Source of the DNA: Geodermatophilus tzadiensis
GTDB lineage: Bacteria > Actinomycetota > Actinomycetes > Mycobacteriales > Geodermatophilaceae
Direction of reading: 5' to 3'
NCBI RefSeq assembly: GCF_003002915.1
Contig: NZ_PVTG01000002.1
Coordinates: forward strand, 186,001-250,000
Length of the DNA: 64,000 nucleotides
Shown piece by piece: positions 6,000 to 48,820 of this stretch (position 1 is the first letter of the stretch; each line of letters opens with the position of its first letter). A program made the translations under genes and the position numbers. The notes beneath the pieces were generated by a model. That model had not been told where the DNA came from and ran no database searches. It saw only the letters and a program-made list of their open reading frames with translations.

Positions 6000-6372
6000 G
6001 GGGGTGAATGGTCTCGACTGCGGTCGGGTGACCAGGGGAAGCGAGCCGAGGAAGCCGACGATGAGCTCGTTAACCACGCGTCGGAAAACACACAAGCGCC
6101 GACAAGAGTCAGCGCGCGTTCGCCCTCGCTGCCTGATCAGCGAGTGTGACGCTGTCAGCCCGGGTTCGGTCATCGACCCGGTGTCTGGCATCAGCTAGAT
6201 GACTCACCGTGCGTGCCGGTCGCGGGCGTGCACGGGACACCTCACAGCGACTGGGCCTGCCATCTCGACGTGTTCGCGCGATCGGGAGGGCCGAGCAGAG
6301 GCAGAGCGGACTGCGCTCGGAGAAGCCCTGGTGATGCGTCGCAGGACGCGGGTTCGATTCCCGCCACCTCCA
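6000..6372 (+). ncRNA. ssrA: Transfer-messenger RNA (tmRNA)
   Basis: Trans-translation RNA that rescues stalled ribosomes. The 5' GGGGGTG pairs with 3' CACCTCC to form the alanine-type acceptor stem, and the 3' end has the T-arm GGTTCGATTCC. CCA is not encoded. The tag reading frame ends in codons for KHTSADKSQRAFALAA followed by TGA at 6134-6136; ALAA is the ClpXP degron, and SQ(R/Q)AFALAA resembles streptomycete tags. The exact resume codon is uncertain (GGA 6083 or AAA 6086). A TAGGAT -10-like box lies at 5977-5982. Confidence 0.95.
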
Positions 6373-6380
6373 CCCCTGAC

Positions 6381-41029: not shown

Positions 41030-41102
41030 GGGGCTGTGGCGCAGCTGGTAGCGCACCACACTGGCAGTGTGGGGGTCAGGGGTTCGAGTCCCCTCAGCTC
41101 CA
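41030..41102 (+). tRNA. tRNA-Ala (anticodon GGC)
   Basis: A 73-base cloverleaf: acceptor GGGGCTG / CAGCTCC, D-arm GCGCAGCTGGTAGCGC, anticodon stem CCACA/TGTGG with loop CTGGCAG (anticodon GGC), T-arm GGGGTTCGAGTCCCC, discriminator A. CCA is not encoded. Its 3' half is duplicated at 46353, so it is the integration site of the island that follows. Confidence 0.97.
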
Positions 41103-41154
41103 CCCTGATGACCAGGCCGTTCTCCTTCGGGAGAGCGGCCTGAGTCGTCTCTGG
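41061..41154. repeat. attL: 94-base direct repeat, left copy
   Basis: From the anticodon loop of tRNA-Ala through its terminator. The first 46 bases (41061-41106) are identical to 46353-46398, and the rest differ at a few positions, several compensatory in the terminator stem. Integration in a tRNA 3' end is standard for tyrosine recombinases. Confidence 0.9.
41114..41141 (+). terminator. tRNA-Ala terminator
   Basis: Hairpin AGGCCGTTCTCC / GGAGAGCGGCCT with a TTCG tetraloop and one T-G wobble, 12 bases past the tRNA. A perfectly paired variant occurs in the right repeat. Confidence 0.8.
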
Positions 41155-41193
41155 TGCCAGCGTGGTGGCCACTGGTGCCGACCCGGGATCGGC

Positions 41194-41905
41194 TCAGTCC
41201 CACAGCGCTCGTCCCATCCGGTCCGCCGCATCGCGTCCCAGCGCCGGCATCACGTGGCGGTAGGTGTCCGTAGTCGTCCGCATCTGTGCGTGGCCGAGCA
41301 CCTCCATGACGACTCGGGGGTGCACCCCCTCGGCCAGCAGCAGGGTCGCCGCGGTGTGCCGGCCGTCGTGCAGGCGCACCTCGCGCACGTCGGCCTCGCG
41401 GAGGAGGGCCTTCCGAGTGCGCCAGTCCGACTTGCGCTCGATCGGCCGACCGTTGGGCTGAGCGAAGACCAGGTCGTGGTCCTCCCAGAGCGGGCCCGCA
41501 AGCTTGCGCTCCTCGAGTTGAGCGGCGCGGTGGGCTCGTAGTGCCTCGACGAGGGGATCCGGTAGCGCCAGAGTGCGGCGGCTGCGGTCGGCCTTGGGTT
41601 CCTCGTAGACCGAGCCCTGCCCGCCGACGCGGTGCAGGCCGCGCCGGACGGTCAGCGCGCCGTTTCCAAGTCGACGTCTGCCCACCGCAGGCCGAGGGCT
41701 TCGGACTGCCGCAGTCCTACCGCCAGCGCAGCGGTCCACCGAGCCGCGTTGCGATGCGCTTGGGCGGCCGCGATCACCCTCCGGGCCTCGGTAGCGGCGA
41801 GCGGCAACGCCGTCTGCGGTCGCTTCACGCTGGGCGGATCCACCAGGGTGGCGACGTTGCGCGCGATCCTGCCGCGCTGGGTGGCGACACGGAGAGCGCG
41901 GGACG
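41194..41905 (-). pseudogene. Tyrosine recombinase (integrase), frameshifted and 5'-truncated
   Basis: The catalytic half of a phage/ICE-type integrase. The 3' frame holds VRLHDGRHTAATLLLAEGV (Arg and His of the active site) and VMEVLGHAQMRTTTDTYRHV with the nucleophile Tyr. The upstream part, RNVATLVDPPSVKRPQTALP then AALAVGLRQSEALGLRWADVDLETA (first catalytic Arg region), is in another frame; a single-base indel near 41661-41668 joins them. The N-terminal core-binding domain is absent beyond about 41905. The gene ends 39 bases from the tRNA repeat, as integrases of tRNA islands do. It is almost certainly inactive. Confidence 0.88.
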
Positions 41906-42036
41906 GCGGCCGAGACGACTCCCGGTGCCCGTCGTGGTGCCGCGGTGGCTGAACGTTCTCCAGGTCATCCGTGCCCGGTGGAGCGCAGGTGCCGCGCTGC
42001 GGCTACGGCTCTTGCCAAGAGAGAAGCGCTCCGCCA

Positions 42037-42052
42037 CATTGGTTAGGCAACC
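42037..42052. promoter_or_regulatory. Candidate TetR operator TTGGTTAGGCAACCAA
   Basis: Inverted repeat with 6-base arms TTGGTT / AACCAA, 15 bases before the TetR start and just upstream of AGGAGG. Position fits autorepression; AT-rich compared with surroundings. Confidence 0.5.
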
Positions 42053-42067
42053 AACCAGGAGGCCCAC

Positions 42068-42619
42068 GTGGCAGCCAGGCGGGAGGCGATCGTGGCGGCA
42101 GCGCTCGACGTCATCCAGGAGGAGGGGCTCAGCGGCTTCACCCAGCCGCGGGTCGCCCGGCGTGCCGGGCTGCGACAGAGCCATCTCACGTACTACTTCC
42201 CCACGCGAGCCGACCTTCTGCTCGCCGTCGCCGACGAGGCGGTGCGCCGACGGATCGAGGCCCTGCGCAAGGCGGTGTCGGCCGAGGACCCGGCGATGAA
42301 GGTCACCGGCCTCGTAGACGTGCTCGTCGACCCCCGTCAGACGCGGATCCTGACGGCGCTCACACAGAGCGCCGACGCCGACCCGGGAGTACGCCGTGCC
42401 TTTTCGGCGCTGGGCGCCGGGATCGCTCCACTCGGTGCCGCGCTGATCACCTCCTTCGGCGCCGAGCCGACCGAGGCCTCACTCGCCCTGCTGCAGGCGA
42501 CCTCCACCGGCATCGCCGTCCTCGCCCTGGCCACCGGCGCAGAGGCGGTACGCGACCGTGCTGAGCAGGTCCTCACCCAGCTGCTCACCAGCCTGCGCAC
42601 CGAACGGGACTGCACCTGA
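42068..42619 (+). CDS. TetR/AcrR-family regulator (island-borne)
   Basis: A 183-residue regulator with the helix-turn-helix IVAAALDVIQEEGLSGFTQPRVARRAGLRQSHLTYYFPTRADLLLAV at the N-terminus. The recognition helix ends in the typical LTYYFPTRADLL. The C-terminal domain is helical with no recognisable ligand pocket. AGGAGG 7 bases before GTG 42068, and a strong inverted repeat sits just upstream. It lies within the tRNA-Ala island, 44 bases ahead of the CocE-like gene on the same strand, so it probably controls that gene. Confidence 0.88.
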   Translation: MAARREAIVAAALDVIQEEGLSGFTQPRVARRAGLRQSHLTYYFPTRADLLLAVADEAVRRRIEALRKAVSAEDPAMKVTGLVDVLVDPRQTRILTALTQSADADPGVRRAFSALGAGIAPLGAALITSFGAEPTEASLALLQATSTGIAVLALATGAEAVRDRAEQVLTQLLTSLRTERDCT

Positions 42620-42663
42620 ACCCACCCCACCCACCGGAGAACTGACCCACGGGAGGCACCGGC

Positions 42664-44433
42664 ATGAGCACGCACATCCCCCTCAGGGGCTCGACCGCCG
42701 GCCGGCAGTACGCCGGATGGGAACCACACGCCGTCGCGATGGAGGGACTGGGGAACCGGGTGCTGGCCGACCAGCGCGTCCCGGTCGCCGGCGGTGCCGA
42801 GCTGCATGCCGACGTCTACACCCCGAGCACACCGGGCCGCTATCCGGCCGTCGTCTCCTTCGGGGGGTACGCCACTGAGAAGGCCACGGCGGGCATCCCG
42901 GCCGGCTCGAACGAGATCGGCTCACCGCCGGTGTTCACCGACCGCGGCTACTGCCCCGTCATCGTCGAGCGCCGGGGGATGGGCCGCTCGACCGGCGAGC
43001 AGGTGATGTTCTTTGATCCGCAGGACGTCGACGACCACGAGGCGGTCATCGCCTGGGCGGCCGAGCAGCCGTGGTGCAACGGGGAGGTGGTGCTCTTCGG
43101 CACCTCCTACTACGCCGTGTCCCAGCTCAGCGTCGCCGCGCGCAAGCCTTCGGCGCTCAGGGCGCTGTTCTGCAACGAGGTCTCGACCGACCTGTGGCGC
43201 CACCTGGTCCACTTCGCCGGCGTGCCCGCCTGGTTCTTCGTCGCCGTCTGGATGGGCGCGAATTACACCCAGGAGAACTACGACCAGCGCCTGTCGCCGG
43301 ACCGTCGCGCGCTCCTCAGCCAGGTCACCAACGGGCCGCTGCACCCGCTGCTCGAGCAGCTGGTGCACCGCCGGGTGTCGGGGATGTTCACGTCCTTCGA
43401 GACCGCCACACCCGTGGAGTTCATGCGCCGCATCTACGCGGCCTGGATGTTCGACGAGAAGACGCGCGCGCAGGCGACGATCCCCGAGGGCCCCACGGCC
43501 ACGCTCGGCGACGTCGAGGTGCCCTTCACGGTCGTGCAGAACCTCGGCTACTTCAACCTGCACCAGTTCGGCTGCTACGACCTGGTCGCCAACGCGGGGA
43601 CACCTGCCGACTCCCGGTGGCTCGTCCTCGCCCCGCCGGCCTACGACCTGCCGGTCTACTCCTGGCAGGGTGAGGCGCTGGCCTTCTTCGACCACGTCCT
43701 GCGGGGCACCGACAACGGCTACGCCGAGCAGCCGCATGTGCGCTACTGGGTCGAGGGCGCCGAGCGCTTCGACACCGCCACCACCTTCCCGCCCGCCGAC
43801 GGGGAGGTCCGGCGTCTGCACCTCGGGCCCCCGGACGGAGATGCCGTCACCCACCGGCTGAGCCGGGAGGCGACGGCCGAGGGCTCCGGGTCCTGGGTCG
43901 CCGTCCCCCTGGGGTTGCCGCAGCTCGGCGGCCTGGACGACGTGGCCAACCAGGTCCTCGCCTTCGACCTGCCGGTCGAGGAGGACACCCGGCTCGCCGG
44001 TCCGGTCACCGCCCGACTCACCTACAGCTGCAACGAGATCGACTCCTACGTCGTGGCCCGACTGTCCCGGCTCGACGCTGCGGGAGAACGTCACCAGCTC
44101 TCCCTCGGCGCGATCCGTCCCGTGTCCCGCACCGAAGAGGAGGAACGCAGCACGCCACTGGAGATCGCCATCGACGCCGGCCGCCGCAAACCCCTCGTCC
44201 CGGACGAGCCGGTCGCCCTGCGCTTCAGCCTCACGCCCGGGCCGACGCTGCTGCGCCGCGGGGACACCCTGCGGCTCGAGCTCGCAAGCCGGATCGACCT
44301 GCTCCGCATGGACCCCCGCGAGGGCTACGCGCAGTTCGACATGCCCGTGCCGCCCTACCCCTGCCGCAACACCGTGCACTTCGGCGGTGACAGCTGGATC
44401 GAGGTCACCGAGGTGCCCCTCCCGGCGCCCTGA
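42664..44433 (+). CDS. CocE/NonD (X-Pro dipeptidyl-peptidase S15-like) family protein with altered catalytic motifs
   Basis: A 589-residue protein with the S15 alpha/beta-hydrolase domain, lid and C-terminal jelly roll (from about residue 385; SCNEIDSYVVARLSRLD, LRRGDTLRLELASRIDLL). The N-terminal entry VLADQRVPVAGGAELHADVYTP and MGRSTGE match CocE proteins. The nucleophile motif is FGTSYYAVSQ (Ser148), with Ala where GxSYxG has Gly. Where CocE has the Asp motif GGWYD, this has VQNLGYFNLH, and where it has GPWxH it has APPAYDLP, so the Asp and His are not recognisable. It may be a divergent hydrolase or a non-catalytic relative. Downstream of the island TetR gene. Confidence 0.8.
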   Translation: MSTHIPLRGSTAGRQYAGWEPHAVAMEGLGNRVLADQRVPVAGGAELHADVYTPSTPGRYPAVVSFGGYATEKATAGIPAGSNEIGSPPVFTDRGYCPVIVERRGMGRSTGEQVMFFDPQDVDDHEAVIAWAAEQPWCNGEVVLFGTSYYAVSQLSVAARKPSALRALFCNEVSTDLWRHLVHFAGVPAWFFVAVWMGANYTQENYDQRLSPDRRALLSQVTNGPLHPLLEQLVHRRVSGMFTSFETATPVEFMRRIYAAWMFDEKTRAQATIPEGPTATLGDVEVPFTVVQNLGYFNLHQFGCYDLVANAGTPADSRWLVLAPPAYDLPVYSWQGEALAFFDHVLRGTDNGYAEQPHVRYWVEGAERFDTATTFPPADGEVRRLHLGPPDGDAVTHRLSREATAEGSGSWVAVPLGLPQLGGLDDVANQVLAFDLPVEEDTRLAGPVTARLTYSCNEIDSYVVARLSRLDAAGERHQLSLGAIRPVSRTEEEERSTPLEIAIDAGRRKPLVPDEPVALRFSLTPGPTLLRRGDTLRLELASRIDLLRMDPREGYAQFDMPVPPYPCRNTVHFGGDSWIEVTEVPLPAP

Positions 44434-44445
44434 TCCGGCGGCCGG

Positions 44446-44589
44446 TCACGGGCACGTGGCCATGCCCGGGCGGGCCTCGTCGACGTGCCCGAGCAGGGCC
44501 GGTCCACCCGGCGTGGGCACCCGGCTGGTGATCTCGCACCGGTCGCCGGGGGAGATCCACATCCGGGCTGCGGCCCATGCCACCGACAT
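44446..44589 (-). CDS. Possible small ORF or gene remnant between island genes
   Basis: A 47-residue frame (MSVAWAAARMWISPGDRCEI, then SRVPTPGGPALLGHVDEARP) on the strand of the LLM gene, 47 bases after it. The composition is protein-like and differs from the surrounding shadow frames, but I recognise no family and no good ribosome site. It may be the tail of a lost gene. Confidence 0.25.
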   Translation of the reverse strand: MSVAWAAARMWISPGDRCEITSRVPTPGGPALLGHVDEARPGMATCP

Positions 44590-44636
44590 GCGCTGGCCGG
44601 TGCCGATGTGCGTTGGCCTCCGTTTGCGGATGGGTC

Positions 44637-45668
44637 TCAGGGCCGTCCCGCATCGGCCGGCGTCCCGGTCCGGAGCCTTGGCAGCACCTCGGCGGCGAAG
44701 AGCTCGTTGGAGACGGCCAGGACGTCCGGGTCGGCGTCCCGGGAGCCGGGGACCACGATGATCCGGTCGAGTCCCAGGTCGATCAGCTCACGGAGCCGGG
44801 TGGTGCAGTGCTCGGGGGAGCCCACGACGGTGAAGCGGTCGAGGAAGGCGTCGGGGAGCAGTGTCGCCTGGTCTGCCGTGGTGAGCCCGTGTGCCTCCTC
44901 GTCATAGGCCGCGCGCACCCGCTCCACCACCGCACGGTCGTCGTCCGGGACGACGTCGTGCGGACCTTCGCTGACGAAGTGCGCGAAGATCGCCGCGCTG
45001 CCGCGGACTAGGTCCCGCGCCACCGCGGTGTCCGGGTGGACGGCGACGTTGACGAAGGCCCCCAGCGACAGCGGAGCTCCTCGGTCCTCGACGGCGTGCC
45101 GAGCTTCGGCGATTGCCCACGCCACCCGCCGCGGATCGGCCCCCACGGTGAAGTCGACCCGTCCACAGCGGCGGGCTCCGATCGCGATGGTCGTGGGACC
45201 CGTCGCGGCCACCGACACCGGGACCTCATCCACGTGGAAGGGCTCGACCCACCCCATGCGGGCGGCGATACCGCGGGTGGCCACGGTGCGCCCGCCGATG
45301 AAGCCCTGCAGCTGGTCGAGCCCCCGTTCCAGTTGCCCCGTGGTGGCCGGGTGCAGGCCCAGCTGCCGGACTGCCGAGTCACCCCGGCCGAGGACGACCA
45401 CGGCCCGCCCGTCGGACTCGATCTGCAGCGTCGCGAGGGCCGACGCGGTGACGGCCGGATGGCGGGTCACCGGGTTGGTGACAGCGGGACCGAGCCGCAA
45501 GCGCCGCGTCGACTGAGCGGCGAGGGCCAGCTCCACGTACGGATCGCCCACGAGGTTCTCGCTGTCGGCGAGCAAGAGACCGTCGAAACCCCAGGCCTCC
45601 GCCTGCACCGCCAGGGCGGTGGCCCGGCGCGGGACGGGGAACCCGTGCAGCCAGAACTCAGTGCTCAT
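44637..45668 (-). CDS. LLM-class flavin-dependent oxidoreductase (F420-type)
   Basis: A 343-residue luciferase-like monooxygenase-fold protein resembling F420-dependent 5,10-methylenetetrahydromethanopterin reductase relatives. LAVQAEAWGFDGLLLADSENLVGDPYVELALAAQST is the N-terminal barrel signature, RLRLGPAVTNPVTRHP the conserved strand/loop, VVLGRGDSAVRQLGL the cofactor-binding turn, and RFTVVGSPEHCTTRLRELIDLGLDRIIVVPGSRD the C-terminal phosphate-binding end. Such enzymes use F420 or FMN; sequence cannot fix which. It is the right-hand cargo gene of the tRNA-Ala island, convergent with the CocE-like gene. ATG 45668 has a poor ribosome site. Confidence 0.88.
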   Translation of the reverse strand: MSTEFWLHGFPVPRRATALAVQAEAWGFDGLLLADSENLVGDPYVELALAAQSTRRLRLGPAVTNPVTRHPAVTASALATLQIESDGRAVVVLGRGDSAVRQLGLHPATTGQLERGLDQLQGFIGGRTVATRGIAARMGWVEPFHVDEVPVSVAATGPTTIAIGARRCGRVDFTVGADPRRVAWAIAEARHAVEDRGAPLSLGAFVNVAVHPDTAVARDLVRGSAAIFAHFVSEGPHDVVPDDDRAVVERVRAAYDEEAHGLTTADQATLLPDAFLDRFTVVGSPEHCTTRLRELIDLGLDRIIVVPGSRDADPDVLAVSNELFAAEVLPRLRTGTPADAGRP

Positions 45669-46352
45669 CAGGCGCCGCCGGCCCGGTGACCGGCTCCGGT
45701 GGCGGACGGGCGCTCCGGTCCCGGTCGCGGTTCCGTCGGGGACAGGGTCGTCCCACTCCTCGTCGCGGCACCTCCTCGGCGGATGGACACGACACCCCCA
45801 CCTGGCACAGTCGATGCCGACGCGCGGCAACGTAGCGGTCGCCGGGTCCTCTGTCGACGATCCTGGCTCGTGACGAGACCGGCGGACGGTCGTGCAGCCG
45901 TCAGGAGCGCTCCGGATCGACGGCGCCTGGCAGTCGCACCCCAACCTGCCGGATGCGCCGCGACGGGGACGGCGGGCAGGGTCCCGAGGATCCCGCTCGT
46001 CCGGACCCGCGACCGGTACAGCAGTGCGGTCCGGACGAGCCGGTACCCGGTCGAACGACGGCGGACGCTGCAGCGCTGTGACCAGCGCAGACGGCATGAC
46101 GGCGGACGATGGGCAACCCCCGAACGTGACCGGGGCCAGGAGGTCCCGCCTTCGCCCGATCTCATGTCACGGAGCCGCCGTCGCGGTACGTCGGTCAGGT
46201 GACGCGTCGTTCAAGAAGCCTGCGCGTGGTGCCACGACGGTGGCCAGAGTGCGGCGTTCAGGGTTGTTCGCGAGCGTCCGTCGCCGACCACACAGCGACC
46301 TGACCTGCATGGACGGACCTTGGTGGACCCCTCCGAGCATCCACCGGCCTCC
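45669..46352. other. 684-base gene-poor stretch at the right end of the island
   Basis: I see no credible gene on either strand. An inverted repeat CTCGTCCGGACC (from 45996) / GGTCCGGACGAG (46028-46039) with 14-base arms allowing one bulge lies in the middle. The remaining sequence is less GC-rich at codon-like spacing than the flanks and may be decayed island DNA. Confidence 0.5.
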
Positions 46353-46446
46353 CTGGCAGTGTGGGGGTCAGGGGTTCGAGTCCCCTCAGCTCCACCCTCA
46401 TGACCAGGCCGTCCTCCTCCGGGAGGACGGCCTGAGTCGTCTCTGG
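46353..46446. repeat. attR: 94-base direct repeat, right copy
   Basis: Repeats the 3' half of tRNA-Ala (46 identical bases), then a diverged copy of its terminator in which AGGCCGTCCTCC / GGAGGACGGCCT is perfectly paired. It defines the right boundary of the island. It is not a functional tRNA. Confidence 0.88.
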
Positions 46447-46500
46447 TTGCGGTCGAGGTTGCCGTCGTCGCGCGCATCTGGCTGTGGCCCAGCAGGTCCT
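46447..46500 (-). pseudogene. Remnant of a second integrase C-terminus
   Basis: Immediately beyond the right repeat, the minus strand reads DLLGHSQMRATTAT, the LGHxxxxTT box that precedes the catalytic Tyr of tyrosine recombinases. Only about 18 codons survive. It mirrors the position of the first integrase beside the left repeat, suggesting tandem insertion of two elements in the same tRNA. Confidence 0.6.
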
Positions 46501-46566
46501 GCTCAGGAGCAGTGCGGGAGGCCCGGCTCCTGACCCCGATGATGGTCAGGCCGGCACCTGGCCGGC

Positions 46567-47889
46567 TCAGTACGGTGCGGGAGCCGCCCGAGGTGGTGGC
46601 GCGGCGGTGACGTCGGCCCCCGACCCGATGCCCTCGGTGTCCGGGGTGAGCGCTGCGACGACGTCCTCCTCGTCCTCGTGGGCGCGCCGGACGGCGGCGT
46701 CCAGCAGCCTGAGCTGGCGGTCCAGCGGCTCCTGCCGGTCCGGCGGTGCCACGCCCTGGAGGTCGGCCAGCGCCGCGCACAGCTTCCGGGTCACCTGTGG
46801 CTCCGACGCCCCGGCCAGGCGGATCTCGTCGAAGGCCAGCCGGACGTAGCCGTCCCAGCTGACGGTCCGCTCGGTCAGGCGCACCACGCCGTCCTCGTCG
46901 CGGTGTTCACCGCAGGGCAGGGGGCGGGCGGCCATCTGGCGCAGCAGGTCGTGCAGTCGGTGCAGCGCCTGGACCGCCGTCGTGGGGTCGTTGAACGGCT
47001 GTGCGATCGACCGCACGGCGATGTCGACGAGCTTGCGGAAGCCGTAGGCGAGGTCCTCGGTGTGCACGCGCTCCGGGCCGAGCAGGACGTGACGGGTGAC
47101 GTCGGCGGCCCGGAGTCGACCGGCCGGGCGGCCGTCGGCGCTGGCCCCCGACCGGGTGTCCGGGTGCACCCGGAGGAGCGGCGCGCCGCCGACGACGAAG
47201 TCCCCGACGACGGGGACCAGTTCCAGCACGCAGTCCGCCTGCCGGGCCGCTGCGACCAGCGCCGGCCGGTCGACGCGGACCACGTTGCCGGGCTGCGCGG
47301 CGACCATCTCGTCCGCGCCGCCGGTGACGACGGGCAGCTCACCGTGCTGGCGGACGATGAACTCGCGGCTCCGGTCGCCGACGAGGTCGATCAGCCCCGC
47401 GACCCGCAGGCCCTGGGCGGCGTGGTGCACGAACAGGACGAGCACGACGATGCTGGCGAGCATCAGGACGTAGGACAACAGCATCGACAGCCCGGGCACG
47501 GTGCCGGTGTCGGAGCCGCGGATCTCGCGGAGGGTCAGCACCGCGACCAGGAACGTCGCGCCGAACAGCCCGATCGCCACCTGGCTGAACCGGTCGTTGA
47601 GCAGCGCCCCCACGATGCGGGGGGAGAACTGGCCCATCGCCAGCTGGACCGCGACCAGGGTGACCGTCAGGACGAGGCTGGTCAGCGACACCATGGCGGT
47701 GGCGAAGGAGGACAGGATCGTCTGGGCGTCGGACGGCGTCCCGGTCAGGCTCTGCGGGACGAGCCGGTAGCCCGCCGCCCGGTCCACGGCGAGCGTTCCG
47801 ACGGCGAGGAGGGCGCCCGCGGCCAGGCAGCCGACCGGCAGCAGCCACAGGCTGGTGCGGACGAGGCGCTGGAGCCGCAGCCAACTCAT
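46567..47889 (-). CDS. DUF2254-family membrane protein
   Basis: A 440-residue predicted membrane protein of the DUF2254 type. Four membrane helices lie in the first 165 residues (about 10-33, 57-88, 101-122 and 132-155), with LSSFATAMVSLTSLVLTVTLVAVQLAMGQFSPRIVGALLNDRFSQVAIGLFGATF the best conserved region. A large soluble domain follows (AYGFRKLVDIAVRSIAQPFNDPTTAVQALHRL, the family's second block). The role is unknown. A Pro/Ala-rich tail ends the protein. It is the first intact gene right of the island. Confidence 0.88.
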   Translation of the reverse strand: MSWLRLQRLVRTSLWLLPVGCLAAGALLAVGTLAVDRAAGYRLVPQSLTGTPSDAQTILSSFATAMVSLTSLVLTVTLVAVQLAMGQFSPRIVGALLNDRFSQVAIGLFGATFLVAVLTLREIRGSDTGTVPGLSMLLSYVLMLASIVVLVLFVHHAAQGLRVAGLIDLVGDRSREFIVRQHGELPVVTGGADEMVAAQPGNVVRVDRPALVAAARQADCVLELVPVVGDFVVGGAPLLRVHPDTRSGASADGRPAGRLRAADVTRHVLLGPERVHTEDLAYGFRKLVDIAVRSIAQPFNDPTTAVQALHRLHDLLRQMAARPLPCGEHRDEDGVVRLTERTVSWDGYVRLAFDEIRLAGASEPQVTRKLCAALADLQGVAPPDRQEPLDRQLRLLDAAVRRAHEDEEDVVAALTPDTEGIGSGADVTAAPPPRAAPAPY

Positions 47890-48057: not shown

Positions 48058-48820
48058 TCAGGCCCGGCAGGGCGACGGGACCAGGGGCACGTAGAGGCCC
48101 TCGCGCTCGGCCCGCACCGCAGCGAGCGTCCTCGTGGGTGCATCGAGCTTGACGAGGACGTGCTCGAGGTGGGCAGCGACCGTACGCGGGGCCACGACCA
48201 GCGCGCGGGCGATCTGCTGGTTGGAACACCCGTCGACCAGCAGCCCGAGCACCTCCAGCTCGCGCGGCGTCAGCCCCCGCAGGTGGGTCACGGGGGAGAG
48301 GACGACCGTTCCGAGCAGGCGTGCCGATGCTTCACCGGGAGCGGCCAGGACGGTCACGCGGACGTGCCCGTCCGGGGCATGGCGTCCTCCGCGGGGCCAC
48401 AGGAAGGACGCGAACACCCGGCCGTCGTCGATGCACGAGCGCGCGATGCTGACGACGGGCGACCCCTCGGCGAGCAGTGCGTCGCCGTCGAGGCCGGGCA
48501 GTGGCCGGGTGGCACGATCGCGGCAGAGCACCATGCCTGCGGTCGCCCCCCGCACCAGCCGCGCTGCCGCGGCCATCGAGCGCAACGGGTCGATCCCGTG
48601 TGCCAGAACGGGAGTGAGCTGGTGCAACCGACGCCGCATGACCGGGGACGGCGGCTCCTTGCTGCTGAAGAGCAGCGCCAGGTGTCCGACGTGACGCTGC
48701 CCTCCGTCGAAAAGGGTGACGCCCAGGGCCTCGTGGAGGCCGGCCGGGATGAAGCACTCCGCCCACGTCGGCAGCTCTGCGGCCGGGTAGGGCAGGTCGG
48801 ACGGACTCAGCGGTGCGCCG
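48058..48820 (-). pseudogene. LuxR-family regulator, 5'-truncated
   Basis: About 254 codons of a LuxR C-terminal-type regulator. The sensor part runs from PLSPSDLPYPAAELPTWAECFIPAGLHEALGVTLFDGG, and the GerE helix-turn-helix is intact at the end: LTPRELEVLGLLVDGCSNQQIARALVVAPRTVAAHLEHVLVKLDA. No start codon or ribosome site precedes the conserved sequence. Instead, near 48820 the opposite strand begins a PP2C phosphatase tail, so the 5' part was replaced by a rearrangement. A GTG around 48928 could give an in-frame chimeric start but would read through antisense phosphatase sequence. Confidence 0.65.

Follow-up and report, generated by a model that had tools for sequence, protein, structure and literature searches.

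A probable tandem of two decayed integrative elements at a tRNA-Ala(GGC) gene of Geodermatophilus tzadiensis

We analysed a 64,000-nucleotide stretch of the Geodermatophilus tzadiensis genome (the window, G000:C2:186001-250000, from a 4.87 Mb draft in 36 contigs) and found at the 3' end of a tRNA-Ala(GGC) gene what is very probably a pair of tyrosine-recombinase integrative elements, both decayed and lying in a small tandem array. The first keeps both of its ends around a broken integrase gene and a cargo of three genes, encoding a TetR-family regulator, a CocE/NonD-family hydrolase and a luciferase-like (LLM-class) oxidoreductase. The second, nearly erased, most likely begins at the very repeat that closes the first. 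Throughout, G000 is the genome under study, G001 and so on are the other genomes compared, C denotes a contig and L a locus. The genus set comprised 26 Geodermatophilus genomes (G000 included) and the family set 112 Geodermatophilaceae genomes. Class A and class B are names coined here for two classes of integrase found at this tRNA.

Repeats, broken integrase and ends of the class B unit

tRNA genes were located with ARAGORN, direct repeats were sought across 7 kb around the locus, and protein domains were assigned with Pfam and NCBIfam profiles. The target and the framework of the first element are as follows, with positions in the window.

41030-41104, plus strand: tRNA-Ala(GGC), the integration target (ARAGORN)
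41056-41155, plus strand: left repeat (left attachment site, attL), tRNA 3' part and terminator hairpin, with an exact 46-nt core at 41061-41106
41152-41179, plus strand: class B arm-like repeats, TGGTGCCAGCGTGGTGGCCACTGGTGCC, the same motif standing beside the class B integrases of G004, G019 and G024
41194-41903, minus strand: broken class B tyrosine integrase (PF00589), the C-terminal ~236 of 398 residues in two frames, with the N-terminal ~162 missing
46015-46222, no strand: stretch between the cargo and the right end, with no match in the loci fetched from other genomes (E 1e-4)
46223-46352, plus strand: right end of the class B element, with GGTGCCACGACGGTGGCCA at 46228-46246 (homology to other right ends)
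46348-46447, plus strand: right repeat, the class B right attachment site (attR) and most likely at the same time the left attachment (att) copy of the second element (repeat search, alignment)

The two repeats form the longest direct repeat in the 7 kb examined, 100 nt at 93% identity, and reading the sequence gave exact identity over 46 nt (41061-41106 = 46353-46398). An earlier note on this DNA, which had claimed that the tRNA-Ala(GGC) 3' half and its terminator are repeated with 46 identical bases, was right on this point. The hairpins that follow the tRNA part differ in sequence between the two copies and, as judged by reading, both can still pair. A direct repeat of the tRNA 3' part is present at both ends of the element. 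Integration at a tRNA 3' end, with the tRNA restored by the element's own copy, is standard for elements of this family, and the repeats suggest that the tRNA at this locus was restored in the same way. Tandem duplication of the tRNA, raised by the earlier note as another source of the repeats, does not apply, the extra copies being tRNA 3' parts only. Chance, or tRNA-gene duplication without any mobile element, would have to produce a 46-nt exact repeat, an adjoining integrase remnant, matching right ends and a hotspot in other genomes, and we give it practically no weight.

The integrase gene had been described as frameshifted. A tblastn search with the intact 398-aa integrase of G019 did find two frames, residues 163-241 and 241-398 lying in different minus-strand frames that meet at ~41667-41670, but the damage goes beyond a frameshift, for residues 1-162 had no match at the locus in that search. 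What remains scores 58.2 bits against PF00589 (cut-off 27.1) and shares 83% identity with class B across residues 241-398. At the DNA level, homology with integrase genes in G004, G018, G019, G021 and G024 ends at 41903-41904. At the other side, 46223-46352 including the repeat is 74-78% identical to right ends in G004, G015 (two), G019 and G024, and the motif GGTGCCACGACGGTGGCCA also precedes the G022 copy. The left end (att copy, arm-like repeats and integrase) and the right end thus each match other elements at the same tRNA. Since a class B left-end motif, a class B integrase piece and a class B right end occur together, we read 41061-46352 as one class B unit of ~5.3 kb with both ends. 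The repeat motifs of both classes are candidate integrase arm sites.

The class B element has kept attL and attR and lost its integration gene, and it resembles a relic of the cis-mobilizable type. With both ends surviving, it would in principle be excisable by a class B integrase acting from outside; no further match to that integrase was found in G000 at E<=1e-80. Neither an FtsK-like transfer protein nor a replication gene was found, the cargo genes and the integrase piece having other domains and 41-46.4 kb holding no other convincing frame. The proposal of a tyrosine-recombinase integrative element that has lost its mobility is supported by the broken integrase, by the match of both ends to elements at the same tRNA, by the hotspot described below and by the presence of the cargo at this site in one of the 26 genus genomes.

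A probable second element after the right repeat

Two features lie beyond the right repeat.

46449-46517, minus strand: remnants of a further integrase gene, most similar to class A (local alignment)
46567-47889, minus strand: DUF2254 membrane protein (PF10011), the chromosomal right flank

We aligned 46449-46517 locally with 11 left ends (seven class A, four class B), with 500 shuffles for each. The 69 bp, aligned with gaps, scored 28.9-34.5 against integrase DNA of the class A left ends and 20.0-26.0 against that of class B, while the largest shuffle score across all 11 comparisons was 19.3. Homology with the chromosome of G007 begins at 46519. Because the segment aligns with integrase DNA and the chromosome resumes directly behind it, the right repeat most likely forms the left end of another element, now nearly erased, and is not simply a displaced host site; that element is probably of class A. 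The single island of the earlier note is right about its boundary repeat, but the right copy most likely belongs to this second element as well.

If there had been a single integration, the right repeat would be the displaced host tRNA 3' end with its terminator, and only chromosome would lie beyond. Such a history would agree with the one repeat pair in the window, with the class B element having both ends, and with the right copy's terminator being of the type common in the family. It does not account for integrase DNA in the right place and orientation, scoring above all 500 shuffles for each of the 11 left ends, and we consider it improbable.

Terminator type was tried as a marker of the elements and dropped. 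Of the family genomes matched, three have the GAGGGCCTGACC-type: G007 and G008, where it comes after the tRNA, and G002, where it stands at the middle copy. This first suggested that the GACCAGGCC-type was borne by the element, a view that the family search overturned.

Several observations weigh against the two-element account. The stub of the second element is just 69 bp and gapped, and class B left ends, too, score above the shuffles. Terminator type is unusable as an element marker, as the GACCAGGCC-type adjoins tRNA-Ala in most of the family genomes matched. None of the relatives compared was found to combine this right flank with a site that is truly empty: in G025 a class B-like stub lies between the tRNA and DUF2254, and G007 has 7.7 kb between the two.

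We nonetheless favour two elements, and we infer the following order of events. A class A element would have integrated first and later lost nearly everything but its left end (46353-46517). A class B element would then have integrated between the tRNA and the class A stub, restoring the tRNA with its own 3' copy. The front of the class B integrase would have been lost, and the TetR-CocE-LLM block, which is seen in other islands of the genus, now abuts the integrase piece.

Farther along the right flank, homology to G006, G007, G008 and G025 breaks at one shared base (48813-48815), an apparent rearrangement boundary.

Integrase classes at tRNA-Ala across the family

We searched for the site with a 141-bp query covering the tRNA region, and matches were found in all 26 genus genomes and in 105 of the 112 family genomes (E<=1e-25). 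Among the matches listed, 32 of the 112 genomes had at least one copy that begins within the tRNA (query start 29-36) and therefore comprises the 3' part but lacks the 5' half; some genomes have the 3' copy on another contig or far away (G102, G009). The G019 integrase, searched at E<=1e-80, had matches in 52 of 112 genomes. Nine near-complete matches at 83-100% make up class B (G004, G019, which is the query itself, G024, G040, G044, G048, G064, G084 and G110), and a larger group of near-complete matches at 57-68% makes up class A. G100 has one further full-length match at 49%, and partial class B matches occur in G000 (83%) and G060 (84%). All nine near-complete class B genes lie within 1.2 kb of a tRNA-Ala match on the same contig.

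The classes also differ in the motifs that follow the repeat at their left ends, GGTGCCAGC-TGGTGGCC for class B and GGTTGCAGTTGTGGTTGC for class A, with corresponding motifs at the right ends. Class B is followed by a class A piece in G024 (one contig) and G019 (two contigs), class A by a class B piece in G010 (two contigs), and G015 has A-B-A pieces on one contig. In G044, G048 and G064 class B occupies the tRNA, and a class A integrase, still intact, lies beside a further copy on another contig. A fixed order of B then A was considered and rejected: A precedes B in G010, in G001 (by arm motif only) and in G009 (second copy 580 kb away), and G015 has the mixed series. These matches mark tRNA-Ala(GGC) as a hotspot in use across the family genomes that were searched, one site serving two classes of integrase.

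G002 and G008 form an occupied and unoccupied pair at tRNA-Ala, with a different integrase. G008 reads tRNA, terminator and chromosome, and G002 has ~10.3 kb with another integrase up to a further tRNA 3' copy, after which the G008 chromosome resumes. This tRNA-Ala is thus also used, on the tRNA-Ala side of G002:C44 (L111), by a tyrosine integrase of a third kind (370 aa), which shares 48% identity with the one near the tRNA-Met repeats in G002. Separately, class A integrase frames are open through the att copy into tRNA-Ala antisense (L109:1250-3463, minus strand; L104:1868-3406; L107), giving 495-737 aa. With the frame open in this way, the C-terminus of the class A integrase would differ between the integrated and the excised form.

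The cargo, its origin and parallels in other elements

The cargo comprises the following features.

41898-46014, plus strand: cargo block, with homologous blocks at other places in G002 and G008 and its right edge near the 5' end of their WS/DGAT gene
42068-42619, plus strand: TetR-family regulator, 183 aa (PF00440)
42664-44433, plus strand: CocE/NonD-family (S15-like) hydrolase, 589 aa (PF02129, PF08530, TIGR00976)
44637-45668, minus strand: LLM-class oxidoreductase, 343 aa (PF00296)

All three genes are open frames with the expected domains, as the earlier note had them. Its label of F420-type for the oxidoreductase amounts to a family resemblance, since the best NCBIfam models are F420 ones, yet all 23 listed fall below their cut-offs. 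By sequence, the closest solved structures are CocE/NonD hydrolases and F420-dependent Mer-type reductases. Ser148 of the CocE/NonD protein is invariant (>=95%) in an alignment of 23 CocE relatives, and the catalytic Asp and His motifs usual in cocaine esterase are not seen at the expected places, so the active site may be unusual. The TetR gene adjoining CocE suggests a regulated hydrolase.

Rates of substitution were computed by the Nei-Gojobori method (own script), comparing cargo genes with core genes from window 1.4-21 kb. Eleven core candidates were filtered for a tblastn match of >60% of length and >50% identity, leaving 7 for G002, 8 for G008, 9 for G017, 5 for G012 and 10 each for G006 and G025. 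The ratio of nonsynonymous to synonymous divergence (dN/dS) of the cargo against G002 and G008 was 0.15-0.31, which indicates that the cargo genes are kept by purifying selection while the integrase is dead. The locus now carries a hydrolase, putatively under TetR control, and an oxidoreductase. To G002, cargo dS was 0.163-0.186 against 0.264-0.295 for the core, and to G008 it was 0.178-0.182 against 0.187-0.307. Over a 4.9 kb core stretch the closest of seven relatives were G006 (93%) and G025 (91-92%, two pieces), and at the thresholds applied neither of them gave a match to CocE or to TetR. Low dS together with the lack of CocE and TetR in the closest relatives argues for horizontal transfer. 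The same measure shows no difference for two other genomes: dS was no lower than core to G012 (0.316-0.365 against 0.246-0.391) or to G017 (0.290-0.317 against 0.188-0.392), and the lowest G008 core value, 0.187, is barely above the cargo. Transfer is thus supported for the G002/G008 pair only.

The joints of the cargo bear on how it came to lie here. On the left, the joint falls inside the integrase gene, where integrase homology reaches 41903-41904 and cargo homology to G002 starts at 41898, with ~6 bp shared, and the cargo takes the place of the first ~162 integrase codons. The right-hand limit of homology to G002 is 46014, close to where the WS/DGAT gene that comes next in G002 and G008 has its 5' end; the WS/DGAT relative of G000 itself lies on a different contig, C7. 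Four other Geodermatophilus genomes have matching blocks, at 88-93% DNA identity, that lie away from tRNA-Ala. Five of the 26 genus genomes have TetR (G000, G002, G008, G012 and G017), and these five also have CocE at >=91%; CocE relatives that are weaker or broken occur in G017 and G019. The LLM gene is found at 91% only in G002; G017 and G019 have relatives at 46-48%, and the one in G015 is broken. The G008 block lacks exactly the LLM stretch 44546-45851 (L060:7888), and on either side of the G002 copy stand ~9 bp of which G008 has a single occurrence; the difference is either an insertion or a clean deletion.

That all relatives might carry the same genes at this site, as the earlier note had allowed, is not the case, this cargo being at the site in one of the 26 genus genomes, with other contents in others. 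Its statement that the element had kept its cargo is not demonstrated, given the joint inside the integrase gene and a cargo found elsewhere in four genomes and at tRNA-Ala in no other genus genome searched. The cargo arrived either with the class B element or later. Had it entered with the element, a later deletion would have fused it to the integrase remnant: a simple history, needing one deletion with few shared bases at the joint, in keeping with both element ends flanking the cargo and with the same block riding in a tRNA-Met-repeat-bounded island of G002. CocE is nevertheless at tRNA-Ala in none of the other genomes of the genus set, though several have class A or class B elements there, and the block is cut near the start of WS/DGAT. 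We regard arrival with the element as quite possible without leaning towards it.

Elsewhere in the genus the block keeps company with other tRNA genes. In G002 the block, together with an integrase-like gene, is enclosed by two 40-nt copies of a tRNA-Met 3' end that are separated by 8.65 kb, and the G008 block adjoins a tRNA-Met 3' repeat. Synteny between G002 and G008 had prompted the idea of a native chromosomal origin, which these repeats and the integrase weaken. G012 has a tyrosine integrase match ~15 kb from the cargo. The G017 cargo lies 0.4 kb after tRNA-Gly(CCC), with no second tRNA 3' copy and no integrase in 37 kb. A 55-57% CocE relative stands ~0.3-0.9 kb after tRNA-Met in four Methylocystis loci (L085, L087, L088, L090); none of the four repeats the tRNA-Met 3' end, and we leave this as coincidence or a single event. 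That a TetR-CocE module, accompanied or not by LLM and WS/DGAT, travels among islands that target different tRNAs is a tentative and rather unlikely proposal. If true, unrelated integrative elements would have captured the module again and again, by illegitimate joints within their integrase genes.

Known systems offer partial parallels. Cis-mobilizable elements (CIMEs), and accretion at att sites, are set out for streptococcal integrative and conjugative or mobilizable elements in PMC5704250. The present locus shares with them att sites at both ends, a dead integration gene, the lack of any transfer gene seen and a neighbour element at the same tRNA. It differs in its actinobacterial tRNA-Ala target, in the lack of an intact partner element in G000, and in that its mobilization would be a prediction from sequence. 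Actinomycete integrative and conjugative elements (AICEs) occur in tandem at tRNA genes, and in one such pair the two integrases belong to different subfamilies (PMC3218068). Like them, the locus has a tyrosine integrase beside an att site in a tRNA 3' end, and tandem pairs; unlike them, it has no recognised transfer or replication gene in its 5.3 kb. The ssrA islands of Dehalococcoides (PMC3146451) are tandem RNA-gene islands without integrases, the cargo-only ones proposed to be cis-mobilizable. They share RNA-gene 3' repeats and tandem arrangement with the locus, and differ in using a serine recombinase and a tmRNA target. The window has a tmRNA gene of its own at 6000-6374 (tag ADKSQRAFALAA). 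A literature search on Geodermatophilus with genomic island, tRNA and integrase returned nothing on the genus by title, and we claim no wider absence.

For specialists in integrative elements the locus is a useful example rather than a surprise, a fairly ordinary pile-up and decay. As we read it, accretion and decay can be followed clearly here, and dated, at a tRNA-Ala(GGC) hotspot where two integrase classes share one site, and a small metabolic module outlives its carrier.

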